From contig JAVCDC010000018.1 of the NCBI GenBank assembly GCA_030765135.1, forward strand, positions 1-32,668: DNA of 32,668 bases, given 5' to 3'. This document shows, in pieces, positions 2,434-26,254 of the stretch. The first letter of the stretch is position 1, and each line of letters opens with the position of its first letter. This DNA is from Candidatus Tritonobacter lacicola (GTDB lineage: Bacteria > Auribacterota > Tritonobacteria > Tritonobacterales > Tritonobacteraceae). Below the pieces are notes generated by a model. It worked only from the letters and a program-made list of their open reading frames with translations, had not been told where the DNA came from and did no database searches. The position numbers and the translations under genes were made by a program.

Positions 2434-3186
2434 ATGAAGATAGCCATATCCGGAAAAGGCGGGGTTGGTAAAACGACGGTATGCGCCCTCCTCTGCCGTG
2501 AGTTCTCTCGGAGGGGGTACTCGGTGCTCGCCGTTGACGCAGACCCCGACTCAAACTTGCCTTCGGCTCTCGGCTTTCCCGGCGCCGAGAAGATCAAGCC
2601 CATTGTGGAGATGAAGGAGTTGGTAAGTGAACGGGCGGGAGAAGGCGGAGGTCTTGTCAGACTCAATCCGCGGGTAGATGATATTCCAGATACCCACAGT
2701 GCGACCCACGACGGCATAAAGCTCATAGTCATGGGCGGCGTCAAGCGGGCGGGCGGAGGCTGCGCGTGCCCGGAAAACGTCTTCTTGAGAGAGCTCCTGG
2801 GCCATATACTGACGGAGTCGAGGGAGATAGTGCTCGTCGACCTGGAGGCGGGCATCGAGCACCTGGGGAGAGCCACCGCCGGTAGCGTCGATATCTTCCT
2901 GATCGTTGTCGAACCATCCTTCCTGAGTCTCCAATCGGCTGAAAAGATCAACCGCCTGGCGCGAGAGCTGAAGATAGAGAGTATAGCCGTTATTGCCAAT
3001 AAAACCGGATCGGACGAGGAAAGGGATGCCCTGGAGAAGGCGCTCGAGCCACTCAAGTGTATCGGCGCCCTGCCGTTCAGCAGCGTACTCAGGAAAGCCT
3101 CCCTGAAATCCGGTATCCCCGGGGAGGACCCTGGCCTGGAGGGCGCCGTATCGAATATAGTTTCATCTCTACTCGAAACCGAATGA
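2434..3186 (+). CDS. cooC: CooC-type CODH nickel-insertion ATPase
   Basis: This 250-residue protein opens with MKIAISGKGGVGKTT (deviant Walker A), then AVDADPDSNLP. It carries the CooC cysteine pair in GGCACPEN (C110, C112) and ends the ATPase core with DLEAGIEHLGR. Length and motifs are typical of CooC, the dimeric ATPase that helps insert Ni into the C-cluster of CO dehydrogenase. It lies 134 bp upstream of cooS, which supports that partner. The start is fixed by the Walker A at residue 7. The start region abuts a palindromic repeat and has no clear Shine-Dalgarno sequence, so translation may depend on local mRNA structure. Confidence 0.92.
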   Translation: MKIAISGKGGVGKTTVCALLCREFSRRGYSVLAVDADPDSNLPSALGFPGAEKIKPIVEMKELVSERAGEGGGLVRLNPRVDDIPDTHSATHDGIKLIVMGGVKRAGGGCACPENVFLRELLGHILTESREIVLVDLEAGIEHLGRATAGSVDIFLIVVEPSFLSLQSAEKINRLARELKIESIAVIANKTGSDEERDALEKALEPLKCIGALPFSSVLRKASLKSGIPGEDPGLEGAVSNIVSSLLETE

Positions 3187-3189
3187 AAA

Positions 3190-3302
3190 AACCGCTGATT
3201 ATGCGCACGTCAGGCAGGGGCGCCGGATCGGAATGAGATTAAGCAGATTATCCTGGTGTTTTGCATTATGATTACTCGGGATAATCAGTTAAATTATCGG
3301 TT
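3190..3302. repeat. AACCGCGGATT-type palindromic repeat, copy 1 (degenerate)
   Basis: The gap between cooC and cooS begins with AACCGCTGATT (3190) and ends with AATTATCGGTT (3302), degenerate terminal inverted repeats. Its interior (ATGCGCACGTC.GGCAG, GCCGGATCG, TGAGATTAAGCAGATT) resembles the copy at 8335-8467. It leaves only the cooS ribosome site outside it. Confidence 0.55.
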
Positions 3303-15098: not shown

Positions 15099-16967
15099 TT
15101 GAACTCATTTAAAGTCACAATAAATCCCTTTAACAAGACCGTCGAGATAGCGGAAAACTCCTCCCTCTACGATGCCATCCATAAATCCGGAATCCCCATC
15201 CACGCGGATTGCGGAGGAGAGGGTAAGTGCGGAAAATGCAGGGTCATCGTTGATAAAGGAGATTACAGAAGTGAAAAAAACAGGCTGGTAACACCGGAAG
15301 ATTCGGCTCGAAACATCGTCCTGGCCTGCCGGACCTTTCCCGGTTCCGATATCACGATAACCATCCCCGATAAAACTCTTCTACCCTACGACTACATCGA
15401 GCCCCTGAGAAGCTGTCCTATAGCTATCAAGGCGGAGACCATCGACCCTCTCGTCAAAAGGTTCAGTCTCCGGCTCGAAGAACCTAGCCTCGACGACAAT
15501 ATAAGCGACCTCGAGAGGGTGAAGAGAGGCCTCAAAAAGGCGGGCGTATCCGGGGCCATCGGGTGCAGCCTCGCAACTATGAGAAAGCTGGCGCCGCTCC
15601 TGAGGGAAAACGGGTGGATGTGCGACATCTATCTTCTCTCCGCCGATAACAGTATCGTAGACGCCGGAAGGCCCTCCGGGGGATCGCGGAAACTTGGCAT
15701 CGCCATAGACATCGGAACAACGACCGTGGCAACCGAGTTCGTCGATCTCGAAAGCGGGAGGAGCATCGCCTCCCACTCCCTCTACAACCGGCAGATTTCC
15801 TGCGGCGCGGATATAATCCACAGGATCGTTTTCAGCCAGAAGGACGACGGGCTAGAAAAACTCCGCTCCCTCATCCTGGCGACAATCAACGAGACCGTGA
15901 AAAAAATCACCGGGGAGAGCGGTCGCCCGAGAGAGGATATAATATGTGCGGTTCTATCCGGGAACACCACGATGGAGCACCTCCTCCTTGCCATAGACCC
16001 AAAGTACATCAGGGAGGAGCCCTACATTCCCGCTGCCACCCGTTTTCCCATCCTTACGGCACAAGCCGTCGGTCTTGACATCCCGCCCCACTCACCCGTT
16101 ATGCTTACGCCGTCGGTAGGAAGCTACGTCGGAGGGGACATCACGAGCGGCGTGACGGCCTCCGGCATGAATAATTCGGATCAACTTACCCTTTTCATGG
16201 ACATCGGTACGAACGGCGAGATCGTCATCGGGAACAGTGAGTGGATGATCGCGTGCGCCTGCTCGGCCGGGCCGGCCTTCGAGGGAGGCGGTATCGGGGA
16301 CGGTATGACGGCCACATCCGGGGCCATCGAGTCGGTCAAGATATTCGACATGAATAGGCCGCCTGTTCTAACCGTCATCGGCGGCGGACAGCCGCGCGGC
16401 ATATGCGGGTCGGCGATGATCGACCTCATGAGCGAGCTGTACTACTGCGGTCTGATAAACCAGAAGGGCAAGTTCAATCCGGATATATCGAAGATGATAC
16501 GGAAGATTAAAAATACCTTGGGCTACATCGTCGCGCCAAAGGAAAGGACGGAACACGGGAAGGATATTGTCATAACCGAGATAGACATCGCCAATCTCAT
16601 CAGGGCCAAGGGGGCGATCTGGGCGGGAGTATCGACCCTCCTGAAAAAGCTGGAAATCCCCTTCGGCGACCTTCAGCGCGTCCTAATAGCCGGTGGATTA
16701 GGGAACTCCCTCGACATCGAGCGCTCCGTGTCGATAGGCCTCCTCCCGGACGTGGAGAGGGATAAGTTCTGCTACCTGGGCAACGCCTCCCTTTCGGGCG
16801 CGAGATTGGCACTCCTCTCGGAGAAAGCCCGCCGGGAGCTCGACGAGATAGCCTCGAAGATGACCTACGTGGATCTATCCACGACGCCCGGCTACATGGA
16901 CGAGTTCGTCGCCGCCCTCTTCATCCCCCATACCGACGCCTCCCTCTTCCCCTCCATGAGCTCATAA
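15099..16967 (+). CDS. acsV: Reductive activator of the corrinoid iron-sulfur protein (RACo)
   Basis: This 622-residue protein reactivates oxidised Co(II)-CFeSP using ATP. The N-terminal plant-type [2Fe-2S] domain has C38, C44 and C47 (CGGEGKCGKC) plus the later cysteine in LACRTF. A middle domain leads to the ASKHA ATPase core with LGIAIDIGTTTVATEF, LSGNTTMEHLL, MDIGTNGEIV and GGGQPRGICGSAM. It is a full-length member. The only start in frame with the family N-terminus is TTG at 15099, which lies inside a run of aactcatt repeats and has no visible Shine-Dalgarno sequence. Its last 134 bp are duplicated at 19938-20071. Placement after acsC fits its partner. Confidence 0.92.
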   Translation: MNSFKVTINPFNKTVEIAENSSLYDAIHKSGIPIHADCGGEGKCGKCRVIVDKGDYRSEKNRLVTPEDSARNIVLACRTFPGSDITITIPDKTLLPYDYIEPLRSCPIAIKAETIDPLVKRFSLRLEEPSLDDNISDLERVKRGLKKAGVSGAIGCSLATMRKLAPLLRENGWMCDIYLLSADNSIVDAGRPSGGSRKLGIAIDIGTTTVATEFVDLESGRSIASHSLYNRQISCGADIIHRIVFSQKDDGLEKLRSLILATINETVKKITGESGRPREDIICAVLSGNTTMEHLLLAIDPKYIREEPYIPAATRFPILTAQAVGLDIPPHSPVMLTPSVGSYVGGDITSGVTASGMNNSDQLTLFMDIGTNGEIVIGNSEWMIACACSAGPAFEGGGIGDGMTATSGAIESVKIFDMNRPPVLTVIGGGQPRGICGSAMIDLMSELYYCGLINQKGKFNPDISKMIRKIKNTLGYIVAPKERTEHGKDIVITEIDIANLIRAKGAIWAGVSTLLKKLEIPFGDLQRVLIAGGLGNSLDIERSVSIGLLPDVERDKFCYLGNASLSGARLALLSEKARRELDEIASKMTYVDLSTTPGYMDEFVAALFIPHTDASLFPSMSS

Positions 16968-17032: not shown

Positions 17033-19624
17033 TCACTGCCAGCCATAACCCATTGCCGGTGTGTATGGATCGCTGCTGTCCTTAAGATACCCATCAGGAG
17101 CAGTCGCCCCTGAAGGCTGGAAGTTGACCCTGGCGGGAAAGGAAAGGGGCGTGCGGGTCGGTGTGGCTGTGCTCGTGGAGGTAATCGTGGGTGTAGCAGT
17201 CGGCAACGGCGTGTTTGTCGGTGTCGGCGAAGATGTGCTCGTTGCTGCCGGAGTAGGTGTTCCAGTCAGCGTGGGTGTTGCAGTAGGCGTAGCACTGATT
17301 GTAGGAGTAGGCACGTTGACGTAAATAGCGTACAACCGATTATCATACGAGCCAATATAGATCGTGCCGTCGCTGCCTATTGCCGGTGAGGACATGATAT
17401 CATCTGCGGTTACATAGCTCCAAGAGAGCGAGCCGTCCGAGTTGACGCTGTAAAGACGGTTATCCCACGAGCCCACGTAAACGGTGCCTCCTGAATCTAC
17501 AGCCGGCGAGGAAAAGAGGCGATAGCCCGCGACGTAGCTCCAAGAGAGTGCGCCGTCTGCTGTGAGACAGTAGAGGCGGTTGTCATACGAGCTCATGTAA
17601 ACCTTTCCGTCCGAACCTAATGCCGGCGATGAGCCGACTTCCAAGCCGGTCGTGTAGCTCCACACAAAGGAGCCATCGGAATTGAGGCAGAAGAGGAGGT
17701 TGTCACACGAGCCCATGTAGATCCTGCCCTCATCGCTCAGTGCCGGCGAGGAGCGGATGGCATTCCAGAAGGTGTTCGACTCGCCGGTAACATAGCTCCA
17801 GGACAGGGTGCCATCGGAGTCGAGGACGCGGAGGCGATTATCCCACGAGCCAAAGTAAACCCTGCCGCTTAAATCTATGGCAGGCGAGGAATAAACCCGA
17901 TTGCCGGTAGTATAGCTCCAGGACAGGGTGCCGCCTGCGTTAAGGCAGTAGAGGCGCTTATCCAGTGAGCCGAAGTAAACCTTGCCGCTTGAATCTATCG
18001 TCGGCGATGAGTAAACGAAATACCCGGTCTCGTAGGTCCAGGATAGGGAGCCGTCGGCATTGAGGCTGTAGAAACGGTTGTCACTTGACCCCGCATACAT
18101 AGTGCCGCCCGAGCCTATTGCCGGCGAGGAATTCACATCCCATCCAGTAACGTAGCTCCAGGACAGGGTGCCGTCGGCGCTAAAGCTGTAGATGCGGTCA
18201 TCCTGTGAGCCCACGTAAACAGTGCCGTCTGAACCTATGGCCGGCGAGGAATAGGAGATTCGGAACCCTGTTACATAGCTCCACTTCAGCCCCGGGGCAG
18301 GAGATCCTTTATAAGAGCTTTGCCCCGTATGTCGCACATCATGGCGAAACATCGGCCAGGGGCCGGGTGTGGGAGTGGGCCCCGTTGGTGTTTTGGTCGA
18401 TGTGGGCGTGATGGTCGGCGTGGCCGTGATGGTCGGCGTAAGCGTAATGGTGGGTGTGAGCGTTGGCGTGGGTGTCGGCCCGGTTGGCGTCGGAGTCGCC
18501 GTGGGATCATAAAATGCATAGATCCTATTGTCCCAGGACGCCACATAAAGCCGTCCGCCAGAGCCTATGGCGGGGGAGGAATCCACTGAGGCTGCTCCGG
18601 TTGTATAAGTCCACAAAAGAGAGCCTGTAGAAGTAAGCGCAAAGATATCATAGTCGTAAGATCCCACATAGACCCGTCCTTCAGAGTCAACGGCTGGGGA
18701 AGAAAACGTACCGGGTGGAATTAAATAGCTCCACAAGAGAGAACCTGTAGATGTAAAGGCGAAGATACTATCGTCCCAGGACCCCACATAGACTTGTCCG
18801 CTGGAGTCCACGGCGGGAGAGGATTCCACGCTGTATACAGTCCCGTAACTCCACGCGAAGGAGCCACTTGGCGTGAGAGCGTAGATGTGATTGTCACTAC
18901 ATCCTGTATAGATCTGCCCGTCAGGACCTATGGCGGGGGAAGACCACACATTACCTCCCGTTACATAGCTCCATACAAGGGAGCCTGTGGAAGTGAGTGC
19001 GTACACATTGTCGTCATCAGACCCCACATAGACCCGGCCGTCAGCGCCTATGGCAGGGGAAGAATACACATAGGATCCGGTTACATAGCTCCACGAGAGA
19101 GAGCCTGCAGAAGTATAGGAGTAGACCCTATAGTCCCAGGAGCCCATATAGACTCGTCCGTCAGAGCCTATAGCCGGAGAGGAATACAATCCGCCTGGGT
19201 TATGAGTACTCCATAAGAGAGATCCCGTGGAAGTAAGGGCGTAGAATCCTAAGCCATCAGTTCCTACATAGACCCGTCCGTCAGAGCCTATGGCGGGGGA
19301 AGACCACACCACTTCGCTTTTTAACCCGTAACTCCATAAGAGGGCACCAGCAGAAGTGAGAGCGTAGATGTTTTCATCATAAGACCCCACATAGACCCGC
19401 CCATCGGAGCCCACGACGGGGGAGGAATCCACATAGCTACCGGTCTCATAACTCCATAGCAGAGTCCCCGTCTGGGAGCCAGAATAAGAGCTCAGGCCCG
19501 TGTGGCGAGCGTCGCGCCGGAACATCGGCCAGGGTGTGTCGGCAAGCTGGGGCCACGCGGCGTTACATTCAAAAAAGAGAAACAATAAACCGCATAGCAC
19601 AGATACCGCAGTCTGTCTTCTCAT
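17033..19624 (-). CDS. Secreted double beta-propeller PQQ-repeat protein
   Basis: This 863-residue protein has a signal peptide (about residues 1-25, VLCGLLFLFFECNAAWPQ). Two propellers follow, each opened by a PWPMFR.D.RHTG.SSY.GS cap and built of eight blades of about 38 residues (SLxWSYxTGxxVxSSPAIGSDGRVYVGS.D). Pro/Thr linkers follow each propeller. The C-terminus (ARVNFQPSGATAPDGY, then GYGWQ) stops exactly at a motif shared with two other proteins here. A Shine-Dalgarno sequence (aggaga) precedes the ATG, and a strong promoter lies about 50 bp further up. Such propellers bind ligands or scaffold proteins at the cell surface; the tryptophan-docking pattern is seen, the ligand is unknown. 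Confidence 0.85.
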   Translation of the reverse strand: MRRQTAVSVLCGLLFLFFECNAAWPQLADTPWPMFRRDARHTGLSSYSGSQTGTLLWSYETGSYVDSSPVVGSDGRVYVGSYDENIYALTSAGALLWSYGLKSEVVWSSPAIGSDGRVYVGTDGLGFYALTSTGSLLWSTHNPGGLYSSPAIGSDGRVYMGSWDYRVYSYTSAGSLSWSYVTGSYVYSSPAIGADGRVYVGSDDDNVYALTSTGSLVWSYVTGGNVWSSPAIGPDGQIYTGCSDNHIYALTPSGSFAWSYGTVYSVESSPAVDSSGQVYVGSWDDSIFAFTSTGSLLWSYLIPPGTFSSPAVDSEGRVYVGSYDYDIFALTSTGSLLWTYTTGAASVDSSPAIGSGGRLYVASWDNRIYAFYDPTATPTPTGPTPTPTLTPTITLTPTITATPTITPTSTKTPTGPTPTPGPWPMFRHDVRHTGQSSYKGSPAPGLKWSYVTGFRISYSSPAIGSDGTVYVGSQDDRIYSFSADGTLSWSYVTGWDVNSSPAIGSGGTMYAGSSDNRFYSLNADGSLSWTYETGYFVYSSPTIDSSGKVYFGSLDKRLYCLNAGGTLSWSYTTGNRVYSSPAIDLSGRVYFGSWDNRLRVLDSDGTLSWSYVTGESNTFWNAIRSSPALSDEGRIYMGSCDNLLFCLNSDGSFVWSYTTGLEVGSSPALGSDGKVYMSSYDNRLYCLTADGALSWSYVAGYRLFSSPAVDSGGTVYVGSWDNRLYSVNSDGSLSWSYVTADDIMSSPAIGSDGTIYIGSYDNRLYAIYVNVPTPTISATPTATPTLTGTPTPAATSTSSPTPTNTPLPTATPTITSTSTATPTRTPLSFPARVNFQPSGATAPDGYLKDSSDPYTPAMGYGWQ

Positions 19625-19864: not shown

Positions 19865-20080
19865 TTGCATAAGAAAACGACGGATGAGGTGCACAACCTC
19901 TTCCACATAGCGCGGTTGGCCATTCTGTCGGAAACAACCCGCCGGGAGCTCGACGAGATAGCCTCGAAGATGACCTACGTGGATCTATCCACGACGCCCG
20001 GCTACATGGACAAGTTCGTCGCCGCACTCTTCATCCCCCATACCGACGCCTCCCTCTTCCCCTCCATGAGCCGGGCTTAG
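19865..20080 (+). pseudogene. Duplicated 3' end of the RACo gene
   Basis: Positions 19938-20071 match 16828-16961 of the activator gene at 132 of 134 positions with no gap. They encode the same RRELDEIASKMTYVDLST region through FPSMS. Just upstream (19911-19937) the reading frame still resembles RACo (ARLAILSE against ARLALLSE), but the DNA is clearly diverged. Before that the similarity ends. Only about 70 residues remain open, so this is a remnant. It lies on the far side of the double-propeller gene from the intact copy. Confidence 0.8.
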
Positions 20081-20187: not shown

Positions 20188-20682
20188 TCACGCTTTGAAT
20201 AGACAGGACCCTTTTTTTGAAAAGAGGGCGGCGGTGCCGAAGGAGATAACGAGCATGAGAATGGTCGATGGTTCCGGCACACCGTTGGAGCCGGACAGGT
20301 CGTGCCGCGTCTCGGGCGGAGGGGAAGCCGGGTCGGCCGTGAAATTCGTGTAGGCGTTAAGCTCCTGCGACCCGTCCCACACGAGGAAATATACCTCGAC
20401 CGATGCTGTGGTCAGGGCGTGTATGACCATATTGTACCAGAAGCCCCCGCTTACGGTGATGTAGCACAAGCCGACCATGCCGTCGTCGCTCACACGGAAG
20501 GCCGCAGCCTGGTCGGTCGGGTCAAGGCCCGTGAAACCCGAGATCTCGCCCCACACGGTGTGACCGTACGGGCCCGGCCACCATCCGGGAGGTGTCCAGT
20601 GCTGGCCGCTGGCGGGGGCGGACAACGAGAGAAACACCGCTGATGCGACAAACAAAGACGCTATTTTCGTTCTCGCCTTCAC
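20188..20682 (-). CDS. PEP-CTERM exported protein
   Basis: This 164-residue protein has an N-terminal signal (KIASLFVASAVFLSLSAPASGQ). A compact beta-rich domain follows (WGEISGFTGLDPTDQAAAF, GLCYITVSGGFWYNMV). The C-terminus is a canonical PEP-CTERM sorting signal: VPEPST at about 135-140, a hydrophobic stretch and a basic end (SKKG). Known family behaviour is cleavage and transfer by an exosortase in the outer envelope; no exosortase lies in this window. GTG at 20682 is the start, one base after the stop of the upstream TPR gene, so the two are co-transcribed and probably coupled. The tail after SKKG (SCLFKA) is slightly longer than usual. Confidence 0.85.
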   Translation of the reverse strand: MKARTKIASLFVASAVFLSLSAPASGQHWTPPGWWPGPYGHTVWGEISGFTGLDPTDQAAAFRVSDDGMVGLCYITVSGGFWYNMVIHALTTASVEVYFLVWDGSQELNAYTNFTADPASPPPETRHDLSGSNGVPEPSTILMLVISFGTAALFSKKGSCLFKA

Positions 20683-20683
20683 C

Positions 20684-22024
20684 TCAGAGTTTCATCCTCG
20701 ATAACATCCCGGACGCGCGCAGGTTCTCCAGGGCCGGGTCGCTCTTTATATGCTTTCTGTCGTTGAACCCCCTCTTCACGGACTCCGAGAGCCAGTTAAA
20801 TGACCCGTCTATATCTCCCCGCTTGCTGAATACGCACGCCAGGTTGTAGTAGTTGCCGGGGTCCCGTGGCGAAAGCTCCATCGCCTTCCTGAGCTGCTTC
20901 TCCGCCTCTTCGTCCAGCCCGAGACGCAAATAGGCGTTGCCGAGCCCGCCGTACGCCCTGGCATACTCCGGGTCAAGTGCCAGCGTCTCTTTGAAAACCC
21001 TCTCGGCCCCGCTGTAGTCTTCCTCCTTCAGTAATAAGCCGCCCAGATAATCCTTGAGAATAATGCTGCGGGGATATGCCTCGACGAGGCTACCGAACAT
21101 ATCGCGGACCCGGTCCACCTTGCCATCCATGAAGTACAGGTCGGCCAGGGCGACCTCGAACCCTTTCAGCTCCGGGTCGACACCGAGAGCTTCCCTTATC
21201 TCTCTCTCCGCTTTGCCATACTCACTGCGGTTAAAATAGACGATCCCCCGCCTGATTAAGGCCGGGATGAAGAACGGCTCTGCGGCAAGGGCGGCCTCGT
21301 ATTTAGCCAGCGCCTTCTCGTACTCCCCCATCCTCTCGTGTATGAACCCATCGCATAAAAGATCCTGTGCCTCGAAGGCACGCCTGAGATTCGCATGCTC
21401 CACCCGCCCGAGCCTGCTCTCGCGCAGCAGTCGCTTCTGCTGCTCCCTCTCTATTCCCAACAACTTTTCGTACTCCCGGACCGCGCTATTCCTATCGCCC
21501 CGGGATTCGTAGATGGCAGCCAGCATGATATGGGGCTTAACGTAGTCCCGCCCCAGCATTCCGGCACTTCTGTAATGCTTGATTGCCCGGGTGATGTCTC
21601 CTCCGGCCAGGTAGAGGTTTCCCAGGTTATAGTGGGATTTTTCGACATTGATCTCCGGCCTGATGGCCTTCCTGAAGCAATCGAGAGCAGCTTTACTATC
21701 CCCCCGTGAAGCGTGCAGGATGCCGAGATTGTTGAGGGCGTTGATGTTGCCGGGTTCCTGTTCGACGATCTTTTCGTAAGCGGCAGCAGCTTCTCGATAA
21801 TCGCCCTCCTTTGATCTTGCGAGTGCGGCGGAGAAGTAACCGGATGCCCGTGACTTCTGGCGGCGCTGTAATATGCGGTAGGTGATAACTGCAGCAAATA
21901 GCCCGATGGCAAGAACAGCAGAGACAAGAACCAGCACTTTGAAAAACCTGTCAAATCTTCGTGCCCGCCTCCCCCCGGACAGGTGCCTGGTTACTCCCTT
22001 ATTTCTATGTTTCCTTGTTTTCAT
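20684..22024 (-). CDS. Membrane-anchored TPR-repeat protein
   Basis: This 446-residue protein has a basic cytoplasmic N-terminus (MKTRKHRNKG...GGRRARR), one membrane span at about residues 29-51 (VLVLVSAVLAIGLFAAVITY) and then about ten tetratricopeptide repeats (for example ALNNLGILHASRGDSKAALDCF; SHYNLGNLYLAGGDITRAIKHY; AYGGLGNAYLRLGLDEEAEKQL). TPR proteins are often neighbours of PEP-CTERM/exosortase loci, where they may scaffold export or polymer assembly. It starts 10 bp after the upstream gene and ends 1 bp before the PEP-CTERM gene. The call as a TPR membrane protein is firm; the role is inferred from context. Confidence 0.85.
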   Translation of the reverse strand: MKTRKHRNKGVTRHLSGGRRARRFDRFFKVLVLVSAVLAIGLFAAVITYRILQRRQKSRASGYFSAALARSKEGDYREAAAAYEKIVEQEPGNINALNNLGILHASRGDSKAALDCFRKAIRPEINVEKSHYNLGNLYLAGGDITRAIKHYRSAGMLGRDYVKPHIMLAAIYESRGDRNSAVREYEKLLGIEREQQKRLLRESRLGRVEHANLRRAFEAQDLLCDGFIHERMGEYEKALAKYEAALAAEPFFIPALIRRGIVYFNRSEYGKAEREIREALGVDPELKGFEVALADLYFMDGKVDRVRDMFGSLVEAYPRSIILKDYLGGLLLKEEDYSGAERVFKETLALDPEYARAYGGLGNAYLRLGLDEEAEKQLRKAMELSPRDPGNYYNLACVFSKRGDIDGSFNWLSESVKRGFNDRKHIKSDPALENLRASGMLSRMKL

Positions 22025-22033
22025 ATTTCCGGA

Positions 22034-22747
22034 TCACCGCCATCCGTATCCGCTCCCCGAAGATGGTCGCCCGCTGTCTCCGAGATAGCCGTCCGGGCTC
22101 GGTGAATATCCCGGCCCGAAGTTGACCCGGACGGTACCCGGGTTGGACCCGGCATCAACCGGGCTGGTCCCCGTTCCATACTCAAGGATGTCAGCCCAGC
22201 CGTCGCCGTCCGCGTCCCCCCCCGGATCGTTCCACGAACCGGGGTCGAAACCGTTCGCCCTGTAGAACCACTCCCAGTAGCCGCACATACCGTCTCCATC
22301 GCTGTCGTACTCCTCTCCCGTGACGAGGTCAAGCTCGACGGTATCGAACTGGGACGTGGACCCCTCGACGGCATAATAACCGGTGATAACGTACTCTCTC
22401 TTCCCGGCCTTGCTCACAGTGCGGAAGTTGAGAACCTCTCCGTTCCCGGCGTGGACGGGCATGAAGCCGTATCTCCCCTCCTCCCTCACAGTGAACCGCC
22501 CCCGGCAGACGCCCGAACCGTCGAAAGCGCCGATCTCATCACCCGCTTCTGCCGCCAGGCCGTTTATGATAAAGCTAACGCTGTAGAGCATCCGCCCTTT
22601 TCCCGCAGTGCGCAGGGGACTGCCATAGTACGGGCCGGCCACGGCGATTCCGGAAAAAAGAATGACAAGAGCCAATGTGATTGACCATTGACGATTGTCG
22701 ATTGTCGATTGATAATTAAATTTCATTATCCGCTTTACTATTTTCAT
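22034..22747 (-). CDS. Secreted protein with TSP3-like calcium repeats and GYGW C-terminus
   Basis: About 237 residues from the ATG at 22747; a TTG at 22783 and an ATG at 22726 are alternatives. The hydrophobic signal segment (ITLALVILFSGIAVAG) is preceded by residues (STIDNRQWS) encoded by a dispersed caatcgacaatc repeat, so the true start is uncertain. Next come a beta-rich domain (AEAGDEIGAFDGSGVCRGRF), two acidic calcium-type loops (DSDGDGM; DPGGDADGDGWADILEYGTG) and a C-terminal motif (VRVNFGPGYSPSPDGY, then GYGWR) that ends at the stop. The beta domain is reminiscent of that in the PEP-CTERM protein downstream. Function is unknown; surface location is likely. Confidence 0.7.
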   Translation of the reverse strand: MKIVKRIMKFNYQSTIDNRQWSITLALVILFSGIAVAGPYYGSPLRTAGKGRMLYSVSFIINGLAAEAGDEIGAFDGSGVCRGRFTVREEGRYGFMPVHAGNGEVLNFRTVSKAGKREYVITGYYAVEGSTSQFDTVELDLVTGEEYDSDGDGMCGYWEWFYRANGFDPGSWNDPGGDADGDGWADILEYGTGTSPVDAGSNPGTVRVNFGPGYSPSPDGYLGDSGRPSSGSGYGWR

Positions 22748-22803
22748 TCCCGCACCGCTTATTTGCTCTTTTTCAATTGTCAATCTTCACTCGTCAATCG
22801 ACA
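22688..22803. repeat. ATTGACGATTGTCGATTG dispersed repeats
   Basis: Two blocks, attgacgattgtcgattg (from about 22688) and gtcaatcgacaatcgtc (to about 22803), are built from the same TCGACAATCGTCAA unit in opposite orientations. They fall at the 5' end of the TSP3-like gene, partly inside its frame. Confidence 0.6.
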
Positions 22804-22807
22804 ATCG

Positions 22808-25444
22808 TCATTCACTGGGAAACCGGATCTCCACTCCCGATGCCCCGCCTTCCAGCTTTATCCACAGGCCCATACCCGGCCCGACGTATTTGAGTGTCTG
22901 GAGATAGTCCGGTATGCCCTTGTAATATGTGTGGTAGTACGGGAAAACATCGTCCACGGCTATCATCGCCTCCACTTTGTCTCCCGCCGGGTTGCCCGTC
23001 GCTGTGTAGACCACGAGGCCTTTCAGGTAGGCGATGATGTCATCGTGGCTCTCGCTGCCCATCCTGTCCGATCCAAACTGGGCCGTCGGGTAGCTTCCCT
23101 GGTAGTGGACCTTCGCGAAGAGGTCGCTTGCAAGGTTCCAGCCATCGTCCAGCGGCGTGACGAAGAGGCCGCATACCATCTTAAGACGCTTCTGGCCTTC
23201 CATTCTCCAGGTGCAGTCCGCATTCGCCCTCACCCAGTAGCCGTAGCCGCCGGCTATGAATTCGAGCGAGGAGCCCACGTCCTTCTCGTACGTGTAGACC
23301 TCCATTTGGTCCGGGTCGCTCGGGTCCGGGTGCCAGCCGGTTATCTTCTCCACGTTGTTATGAATCCCCATGCCGGTCAGCAAACTCTGGATGCTCGCGA
23401 TCTCGCTGTAGTGGGTCGCGGGTATCTTCGCCTTCACCGCCGCGGAGGGCTCGTGCCCGGCAACGTAGTAGCAGGCGTCCGGACTGAGGCCGATAAGCTT
23501 CCAGTCGTCGTACAGAGGAATCTCCTGGTTGAAGTTATCGTAGAAGTAGTTGATCGCGTAGATGTTGTTGTCCTCCGATCCAAAGTAGATTGTTCCATCG
23601 CCGCCTATGGCCGGCGAGGAGTAGATACTCGACCCGGTTTCATAGCTCCACGAAAATGAGCCGTCGGAGTTGATACTGTAGAGATGGTTATCGCCCCACG
23701 CGGAGCCAACGTAAACCGTTTCGTCAGAGTCTACCGCCGGTGATGATTCGATAAAGCTTCCTGTTTCATAGCTCCATAAAAAGGAGCCTGTAGAGCTGAA
23801 ACTGTAGAGGCGATTATCACAGGAGCCAATGTAAATCCTCCCGTCCTGGCCAAGGGCCGGTGAGGAACTGATATCGGCCCCGGTTACACAGCTCCACGAT
23901 AAAGAGCTGTCGGAGTTAATACTGTAGAGTCGATCGTCAGAAGAGCCGATATAGACCTTCCCGTCCGGGCCTATTGCCGGTGAGGAATACCAGATGAAGT
24001 TCCCGGTTCCATAACTCCAGAACAAGGAGCCGTCCGGGTTAATGCAGTAGATATTGGTTTCATCCTGCCCATAATAGCCGGCGCCAAAGTAAATCTTACC
24101 GTTCCGGCCGATGGCCGGCGAAGAGCCGACCCTGCCCCCGGTCTCATAGCTCCAGGAAAATGAGCCGCTGGAATCAATACTGTAGAGGCGCCTGTCGCCG
24201 GATCCCGAGCCGAAATATATCGTCCCGTCATCGGATATGGCCGGCGAGGACCATACATCGCTGCCGGTCATATAACTCCATAAGAGTAACCCGGCATGGC
24301 TGAGCCTGTAGAGCCGGTAGTCATAAGAGCCGGCATAAACCGTGCCGTCCGGACCTATGGTCGGTGAGGAATCGACATCATTACCCGTTTTGTAGCTCCA
24401 GAAAAGGGAGCCGTCGGAGTTAATGCCGTAGAGGTTGTTGTCGGAAGAGCCGATAAAAACCCTCCCGTTACCGCCCACTGCCGGTGAGGAAATGAGAAAA
24501 CCCCCGGTTCCATAGCTCCACCTCAGCCCCGCGGCCAGAGAGCCCTGATAGGGGCTCCGGCCCGTGTTCCTGACGTCGCGGTGAAACATCGGCCACGGCG
24601 CGTACGGCGTGGCCGTCGGTGTCGTGGTCGGCGGGGGGGTGGGTGTACTGGTTGGAGTGGGCGGATCCGTTGGAGTATTTGTCGGTGTCGGTGTGCGGGT
24701 GGCCGTCGGCGTTTGAGAGAGCGTGGCCGTGGGTGTAGGCGTTGTATCCCCCAGACACCATACCGTATTCCCGTCCTGAACTCCGTCACCATTGCTGTCA
24801 TAGGTGGTGCCGTACCGGTTTACAAAAATGCCGTTGTCGACAATATCGACCCAGGCGTCGTCATTGAGGTTGCCTAAAACCAGCCAGTGGCCGCCCGCTG
24901 CGCGATCACCGGTGAAGTCCGCCTCGTACTGACCGGGAGCAACTTCGATTATTTCGGCAGTCATGCGAAGCGTGTGCTGCCGGTCCCTGGCCGCGATGCA
25001 GGCGCAGGAAGTGCCTGCCGGTATAGTTATCGTTGCATAGCCGATCGTGTCCTGCCCGGTTATCACGTCGAAATCGACGCTCTCCTCAAACTCGTACAGC
25101 ACGGTCTCGCCGGGGCAGCTCACCAGCTCGAATGTTATGCAGCGCGTCAGTATATCCGGACTGGAACCCGTATCGATGCCGGGAGAGAGCTGCACCGCCA
25201 CGGTAACGTCGGTATCGCTTGTGAAATTGATATTCGCCGGAGATGGATCGGGGCAGAGAGCTTCTCTTCCCTGCCAGAAGTTGTCCGAGATAATCGTTTG
25301 GTCCGCAGCGCCAACCAGCCCGTCTCCCGTAATATCCGCGTGATAACCGGGCGGTGTGGGGGCGGGGATTTGGGCAACGGCATCACCTCCCGCAACGCGT
25401 ACCGATACAATAAATCCCAAATAGAAAATCAGCTGCTTTTTCAT
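22808..25444 (-). CDS. Secreted dockerin-like / PQQ beta-propeller protein, first gene of the c-di-GMP-controlled run
   Basis: This 878-residue protein has a signal peptide (MKKQLIFYLGFIVSVRVAGG). Next are a dockerin-like segment (ADITGDGLVGAADQTIISDNF), a beta domain, a second calcium-type segment (GNLNDDAWVDIVDNGIFVNRYG; DSNGDGVQDG) and a Pro/Thr linker. An eight-blade propeller opened by PWPMFHRDVRNTG comes next, then about 270 residues with aromatic GYGYWVRA and GWNLASDL motifs. It lacks the GYGW C-terminus of its neighbours and ends with VEIRFPSE. The upstream leader holds a promoter, riboswitch and terminator. A role in adhesion or surface-complex assembly is inferred; no enzyme active site is recognisable. 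Confidence 0.85.
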   Translation of the reverse strand: MKKQLIFYLGFIVSVRVAGGDAVAQIPAPTPPGYHADITGDGLVGAADQTIISDNFWQGREALCPDPSPANINFTSDTDVTVAVQLSPGIDTGSSPDILTRCITFELVSCPGETVLYEFEESVDFDVITGQDTIGYATITIPAGTSCACIAARDRQHTLRMTAEIIEVAPGQYEADFTGDRAAGGHWLVLGNLNDDAWVDIVDNGIFVNRYGTTYDSNGDGVQDGNTVWCLGDTTPTPTATLSQTPTATRTPTPTNTPTDPPTPTSTPTPPPTTTPTATPYAPWPMFHRDVRNTGRSPYQGSLAAGLRWSYGTGGFLISSPAVGGNGRVFIGSSDNNLYGINSDGSLFWSYKTGNDVDSSPTIGPDGTVYAGSYDYRLYRLSHAGLLLWSYMTGSDVWSSPAISDDGTIYFGSGSGDRRLYSIDSSGSFSWSYETGGRVGSSPAIGRNGKIYFGAGYYGQDETNIYCINPDGSLFWSYGTGNFIWYSSPAIGPDGKVYIGSSDDRLYSINSDSSLSWSCVTGADISSSPALGQDGRIYIGSCDNRLYSFSSTGSFLWSYETGSFIESSPAVDSDETVYVGSAWGDNHLYSINSDGSFSWSYETGSSIYSSPAIGGDGTIYFGSEDNNIYAINYFYDNFNQEIPLYDDWKLIGLSPDACYYVAGHEPSAAVKAKIPATHYSEIASIQSLLTGMGIHNNVEKITGWHPDPSDPDQMEVYTYEKDVGSSLEFIAGGYGYWVRANADCTWRMEGQKRLKMVCGLFVTPLDDGWNLASDLFAKVHYQGSYPTAQFGSDRMGSESHDDIIAYLKGLVVYTATGNPAGDKVEAMIAVDDVFPYYHTYYKGIPDYLQTLKYVGPGMGLWIKLEGGASGVEIRFPSE

Positions 25445-25493: not shown

Positions 25494-25546
25494 AAAATAA
25501 AAAACCGGTCCGCCGCTTTTCGCTTGAGCGATCTTCGGCAGCCCGG
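25494..25546 (-). terminator. Intrinsic terminator overlapping the riboswitch 3' arm
   Basis: On the minus strand CCGGGCTGCCG (about 25546-25536) can pair with CGGCGGACCGG (25515-25505), with about one mismatch and one GU pair. TTTTTTATTTT follows at once (25504-25494). The 5' half of this stem is also the closing strand of the c-di-GMP aptamer, so the two folds exclude each other. Confidence 0.65.
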
Positions 25547-25655
25547 CCGTCTTTCCCTTCGGCGACTAGGTACAAGCTTTTTCAGCCGTTCGGACTAAGA
25601 CCCGTGACTTTGCGTCCCACGGTTTCCCGTGGTTTGCCCTTTCGGACCTTTTTCC
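25536..25655 (-). ncRNA. Cyclic di-GMP-I (GEMM-I) riboswitch
   Basis: The minus strand reads GGGCAAACC, then CCACGG-GAAA-CCGTGG (a perfect stem with a GNRA tetraloop), then GACGCAAAGTCACGGGTCT and a third stem, and closes with GCCGGGCTGCCG. These are the conserved blocks, in order, of the GEMM-I aptamer. The P2 tetraloop and the GACGCAAAG.CAC junction are especially diagnostic. The third stem is longer than in Vc2. The overlapping terminator predicts that ligand binding blocks terminator formation, so c-di-GMP would turn on the downstream surface-protein genes. Confidence 0.82.
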
Positions 25656-25735
25656 ACACTGAACCATAGAGAGAAAAAATACCCCTACTAATGCCCCCTG
25701 GAAGGTTGTTTATTGTGTGTCTTCACTATAAAGAT

Positions 25736-25764
25736 AATATAACCTATATTACTATAACTGTCAA
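25736..25764 (-). promoter_or_regulatory. Sigma70-type promoter driving the riboswitch leader
   Basis: On the minus strand TTGACA (25764-25759) and TATATT (25741-25736) are separated by 17 bp. Transcription from about 25729 gives a leader of roughly 285 nt holding the GEMM-I aptamer and terminator before the ATG at 25444. The rest of 25656-25931 is AT-rich and otherwise without recognisable features. Confidence 0.7.
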
Positions 25765-25931: not shown

Positions 25932-26254
25932 TTAATGCCAGCCGTAGGTGCCCCTCGTTCCATAGCCGGAGCCGTCGTCCGCCTGGTACCCGTCCTGAGG
26001 AGAGGCTCCCGAGGTAAGGTAATTTATCTTTATAATCGTAGACCTGCCGGGGAAGCCCGGTTTCCGGGTCGGCACGGGCGACGGATCACTGAAGGCGTAA
26101 AGCACGCTCGACCCGGCGTATAACCTCCCGTCCAGACCCACGGCCGGAGAGGAAATCACCCTGGACCCCGTTTCCGATAACTCCAGGCAAGCGAGCCCGA
26201 CTGGGCAACGGTATTTTTGTCAACAAAAAGGCCCTGCTCAATCCCGGCGTCCAT
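25932..26254 (-). pseudogene. Frameshifted remnant of a PQQ-propeller protein with GYGW C-terminus
   Basis: The minus strand from 26254 encodes MDAGIEQGLFVDKNTVAQ, then a blade start, GSLAWSY. After that the frame shifts near 26175, and the blade resumes as ETGSRVISSPAVGLDGRLYAGS in another frame. It continues to a short linker and the C-terminal motif IKINYLTSGASPQDGY, then TYGWH and a stop. Less than one blade remains of the usual eight, and no signal peptide is visible. It is the decayed 3' end of a third propeller gene. Confidence 0.65.

Follow-up and report, generated by a model that had tools for sequence, protein, structure and literature searches.

Does the leader of a four-gene operon in a draft genome from a barely studied, uncultured phylum (probably Auribacterota) act as a riboswitch, and if so, which ligand would it sense and in which direction would it turn? 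The window examined here, 32,668 bases in length, is the entire contig 13 of that genome (3.2 Mb, 94% complete). A preliminary description of the window had proposed an ON switch in which the aptamer and the terminator are mutually exclusive. This reading was favored by the family score, the binding pocket, the folding energetics, the conservation and covariation of the overlap, and the c-di-GMP enzymes of the genome, and the probability that the leader is a transcriptional c-di-GMP-I ON riboswitch for the surface operon is put at roughly 85%. The switch is known in kind; its host and target genes are new.

Organization of the leader

The elements of the leader lie on the minus strand in the order promoter, c-di-GMP-I (GEMM-I) aptamer, intrinsic terminator and operon (Table 1), and both the order and the positions previously given for the first three were confirmed. 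When the upstream 160 nt were shuffled, the promoter score was equaled in 1 of 200 shuffles. The terminator hairpin was calculated at about -24.6 kcal/mol, compared to -13.7 kcal/mol (standard deviation, 2.6) when the downstream 31 nt were shuffled, a difference of ~11 kcal/mol in favor of the natural sequence; equal stability was reached in 0 of 1,000 shuffles. A second (tandem) aptamer was looked for in the window leader, and none was found. The four genes of the operon are all on the minus strand and nearly contiguous. Between the terminator and gene 1, a 13-codon open frame was observed (beginning ATGCCGGCTGAATTC and ending TGA), with its stop 3 bases before the start codon of gene 1; it may encode a translationally coupled leader peptide or may be there by chance.

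Table 1. Positions of the features discussed in the text
Feature	Position	Strand	Description
Promoter	25764-25736	minus	sigma-70 type, TTGACA-17-TATATT, 11/12 consensus matches
c-di-GMP-I (GEMM-I) aptamer	25648-25533	minus	G20/A47/C92, long P3 arm; RF01051 68.6 bits, RF03167 63.4 bits
Shared switching strand	25547-25536	minus	GCCGGGCTGCCG; P3 3' strand and C92 in aptamer, 5' arm in terminator
Intrinsic terminator hairpin	25547-25504	minus	GC-rich, about -24.5 kcal/mol
U-tract	25504-25494	minus	TTTTTTATTTT; directly after terminator hairpin
13-codon open frame	25489-25448	minus
Gene 1	22808-25444	minus	878 aa; signal-peptide-like start, Thr/Pro-rich linker, beta-propeller; PF13570 2.3e-75, PF13360 4.1e-27
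Gene 2	22034-22783	minus	up to 249 aa; TSP3-like, GYGW tail at end; weak NCBIfam matches to TSP3-bearing proteins
Gene 3	20684-22024	minus	446 aa; membrane-anchor-like start, TPR repeats; PF07719 2e-41
Gene 4	20188-20682	minus	164 aa; PEP-CTERM sorting signal VPEPSTILMLVISFGTAALFSKK; TIGR02595 19.2 bits, cut-off 16
GYGW motifs	17036-17137, 22037-22132, 25938-26030	minus
Propeller gene with 40-residue repeats	17033-19624	minus	863 aa
RACo-like gene	15099-16967	plus
162-bp stretch and its repeat	16800-16961, 19910-20071		93% identity

Family and probable ligand of the aptamer

The RF01051 covariance model matched the aptamer at 25648-25534 with 68.6 bits (curated cut-off, 35 bits), as the earlier assignment to this family had called for. 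The RF03167 model (c-di-GMP-I-GGC) was also matched over its full length, at 25647-25533, with 63.4 bits (E value, 6.5e-13; cut-off, 59 bits), and the Rfam clan competition, which is decided by E value, reports this "GGC" variant as the default for the aptamer. Taken at face value, the label would make the switch a variant with some altered ligand specificity, which is very improbable: RF01051 scored higher in raw bits, and the RF03167 consensus carries a G directly after GACGC, at position 47, where the window aptamer has an A. The "GGC" of the family name is taken here to denote that G, from the name itself and the model consensus. A reading by eye of the 48 leaders from the phylum survey described below revealed no G47. 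The pocket nucleotides of the window aptamer are G20, A47 and C92 (position numbers presumed from Vc2, by alignment), and because this is the ordinary c-di-GMP set, an ordinary pocket was preferred over the GGC variant. A variant label picked by E value inside a clan can thus mislead on ligand identity.

The scaffold was examined in the same model. P1 forms only 2 to 3 pairs, P3 holds an unusually long insert, and the terminator stem contains a G/A mismatch, all of which could be signs of a decayed, nonfunctional copy. Such decay is extremely unlikely given the intact pocket letters, the paired P2 and P3 with a GAAA loop on P2 (in RF01051 switches, a GNRA tetraloop of P2 docks into P3), the lower P3 with 7 of 7 pairs, and a promoter, terminator, U-tract and genes that are all intact. 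As read from these features, the window aptamer is very probably a c-di-GMP-I riboswitch with c-di-GMP as its ligand. It shares with known RF01051 switches the scaffold, the G20/A47/C92 set, the 5'-leader position and targets of the surface or motility type, but differs from them in its uncultured host phylum, its long P3 arm and its beta-propeller/TSP3-like/TPR/PEP-CTERM operon.

A switch that otherwise works as proposed but senses 3',3'-cGAMP (GEMM-Ib) was also considered. The cGAMP riboswitch of Geobacter metallireducens pilM has the same ON architecture (PMC9262584), and copies with A20, the cGAMP-type letter, were observed in two relatives, on contigs C67, C183 and C85 of G020 and contigs C297 and C257 of G015, both of which genomes also have G20 copies. 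Dual cyclic-dinucleotide signaling in the phylum is possible from these mixed sets. In Desulfobacca acetoxidans, G20 versus A20 separates c-di-GMP from cGAMP binding; there, too, G20 and A20 aptamers occur in one lineage and are predicted to be ON switches, but they stand in tandem with cobalamin riboswitches (PMC9481103), whereas the aptamer in the window stands alone, and every copy in its genome is of the G20 type. The letter at position 20 sets a preference and is no absolute filter. Against cGAMP, all six GEMM-I copies of the genome, the window aptamer included, carry G20 together with A47 and C92. The Ser that marks Hypr cyclases (PMC6456294) is absent from all four GGDEF domains found in the 94% complete genome; the GHxxGD motif keeps its canonical Asp in the C3 and C38 domains and shows Asn instead in the C123 and C108 domains. 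A cyclase may have been missed, since the genome is a draft of that completeness. Overall, cGAMP as the ligand is considered unlikely.

The preferred ligand, c-di-GMP, is in keeping with the remaining inventory. Besides six GEMM-I switches and the GGDEF domains, the genome encodes one HD-GYP domain and five PilZ domains; a search of it for EAL domains returned none. This would place a complete c-di-GMP-to-riboswitch circuit, with the ON architecture of the pilM type, in a barely studied phylum.

Aptamer/terminator overlap and predicted switching

The preliminary description held that the closing strand of the aptamer doubles as the 5' arm of the terminator. The overlap itself was found, although the shared strand is mainly the P3 3' strand plus C92 and not P1. 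The terminator can be built only with the aptamer's 3' strand and C92, so that its formation and that of the bound aptamer are mutually exclusive. In the 153-nt leader, the terminator fold was calculated at -59.1 kcal/mol and the aptamer-constrained fold at -55.9 kcal/mol, so that the terminator is favored by 3.2 kcal/mol with ligand absent, whereas a transcript stopping before the 3' arm of the terminator was predicted to fold with P2 and P3 formed. These energies are for single-strand folds and leave aside kinetics, magnesium and tertiary contact. Since the aptamer is able to form first and the terminator is favored by ~3 kcal/mol, the ligand must hold the aptamer, which fits an ON switch. 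The 5' end of the aptamer, GGUCC, is also complementary to GGACC in the 3' arm of the terminator; this pairing was rejected as a step of the mechanism, as by eye it is lacking in C67 of the same genome and in C11 of the relative G022.

The following sequence of events is proposed. RNA polymerase would start just downstream of the promoter and make the aptamer first. Binding of c-di-GMP, through contacts with G20, A47 and C92, would lock P3 and keep GCCGGGCTGCCG within the aptamer, and with that strand so held, polymerase would read through into the operon, whose four products are exported or surface proteins. At low c-di-GMP, the later-made strand CGGCGGACCGG would instead pair with GCCGGGCTGCCG, capture C92 and form the terminator. 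In the pilM switch, ligand binding is ended by a C75-G102 pairing (PMC9262584). The two are alike in that transcription is turned on, the terminator pairs a ligand-contacting C with a G (C75 in pilM, C92 in the window) and the aptamer and terminator exclude each other, as is predicted for the window. They differ in that pilM binds cGAMP and has other target genes, while the window aptamer carries G20 and no Hypr cyclase was found in its genome.

Conservation of the overlap in the phylum

GEMM-I matches were obtained in 22 of 44 genomes of the phylum, from which 48 leaders were extracted. An overlap like that of the window was present in 17 of them, distributed over six genomes, with the best terminator beginning 8 to 16 nt 5' of position 92. 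In all 17, the terminator pairs position 92 with G; the nucleotide is C92 except for U92 in one. The shared strand varies by locus (GGGCT, GGACT, GAACT, GGGTT and GCGCT), the terminator arm changes accordingly, and the P3 5' strand mostly follows as well, keeping 5 to 7 of 7 pairs. These leaders therefore supply a set in which a strand used by both aptamer and terminator varies together with its partners. Duplexes between shared strands and their matched terminator arms averaged -20.0 kcal/mol, compared to -17.6 kcal/mol for permuted arms, and permutations as good as the matched arms numbered 4 of 100,000, or 34 of 100,000 with 12 representatives; as the loci are related to each other, these counts are descriptive only. 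When arms were compared across loci, the one from the window came only 10th of 12 as a partner for the window's shared strand.

Leaders with terminators apart from the aptamer and a possible antiterminator pairing were found on C17 of the same genome and in G041 to G043, so OFF switches may exist in the phylum, and the window leader might be read likewise, with the bound aptamer promoting termination. The dependence of the window terminator on the aptamer 3' strand and C92, which makes the two structures exclude each other, argues against this, and an OFF switch at this locus seems highly improbable. Over the nonoverlapping leaders, the search for antiterminators gave mixed results. The C17 copy (aptamer, 3157-3297) has a P2 with ~45 nt inserted at its base and precedes two pseudopilin-like genes; because its terminator is separate and an antiterminator pairing is possible, it may be an OFF switch.

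Predicted target genes

For the window, where an ON switch is preferred, the predicted targets are the four genes of Table 1. The earlier assignments of a TSP3-like gene, a TPR gene and a PEP-CTERM gene to the operon all held, the first on weak matches. That of a dockerin to gene 1 was not upheld: no dockerin family was matched in Pfam up to an E value of 10, the protein is a beta-propeller, and its two EF-hand-like loops were seen by eye only. Gene 3 also matched the PrsT-like family TIGR02917, under its cut-off. The operon had furthermore been tied to exosortase-type display. This stands for one of the four proteins, in which the PEP-CTERM signal was found, and a single exosortase is encoded in the genome (PF09721, 7e-48); the other three are without the signal. 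The circuit would be tied to particular surface-protein families, one of them an exosortase substrate. From general c-di-GMP biology, we infer a link of the operon to a sessile lifestyle, and its role would be in surface remodeling at high c-di-GMP.

Paralogs of gene 1 immediately follow two further ON-type switches in the genome (C121, 52% identity over 333 aa; C71, 36% over 278 aa), and in G020, a relative from the same class, a paralog occupies the second position after such a switch (38% over 362 aa). Within the class, two families thus share this combination of switch and propeller. A scan of genome contigs for gene 1 gave one relative (L018, Candidatus Auribacterota), and a G020 riboswitch lies ~16 kb from a gene 1 relative, on a contig that is probably the same as that of L018.

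The GYGW tail and neighboring repeats

A motif of ~33 residues, (I/V)NFQP.....P.GY..D.G..Y....GYGW, was observed at 35 places in the genome. It was recognized by pattern in 27 of the 30 loci read, and in all 27 the stop codon follows GW by 0 to 4 codons. The motif was met again in three or four relatives from the class; it is likewise C-terminal in most readable copies of the relatives G022, G023 and G024 and is missing from most of the phylum. Scans of window proteins against NCBIfam and Pfam did not recognize the tail, and a PDB profile search with it returned nothing convincing. A protein ending in or near the tail is preceded by three of the six c-di-GMP leaders of the genome (gene 2 of the window operon and the first genes on C121 and C71). 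The tail is a candidate for a new C-terminal export or anchoring tag. In three loci of relatives (L125, L127 and L141), the motif instead begins a longer domain, of which the tail may therefore be a detached first segment; the longer domains of L125 and L127, the two scanned, had no Pfam match.

It is conceivable, though doubtful, that c-di-GMP-I ON switches control surface beta-propeller proteins throughout this class as one regulon, that the GYGW tail serves several of these proteins as an export or anchoring signal, and that pseudopilin genes are governed by OFF switches whose aptamers belong to the same family. If so, one messenger would exchange one surface program for another.

Adjoining the riboswitch operon, a gene with its own promoter-like upstream region was observed, whose 863-aa product contains two beta-propellers made up of 40-residue repeats (120-bp direct repeats in the DNA) and a GYGW tail. 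A 162-bp stretch that takes in the 3' end of the RACo-like gene is repeated downstream of the riboswitch operon, and the repeat was probably left behind by a local duplication that included the propeller gene lying between the two copies.
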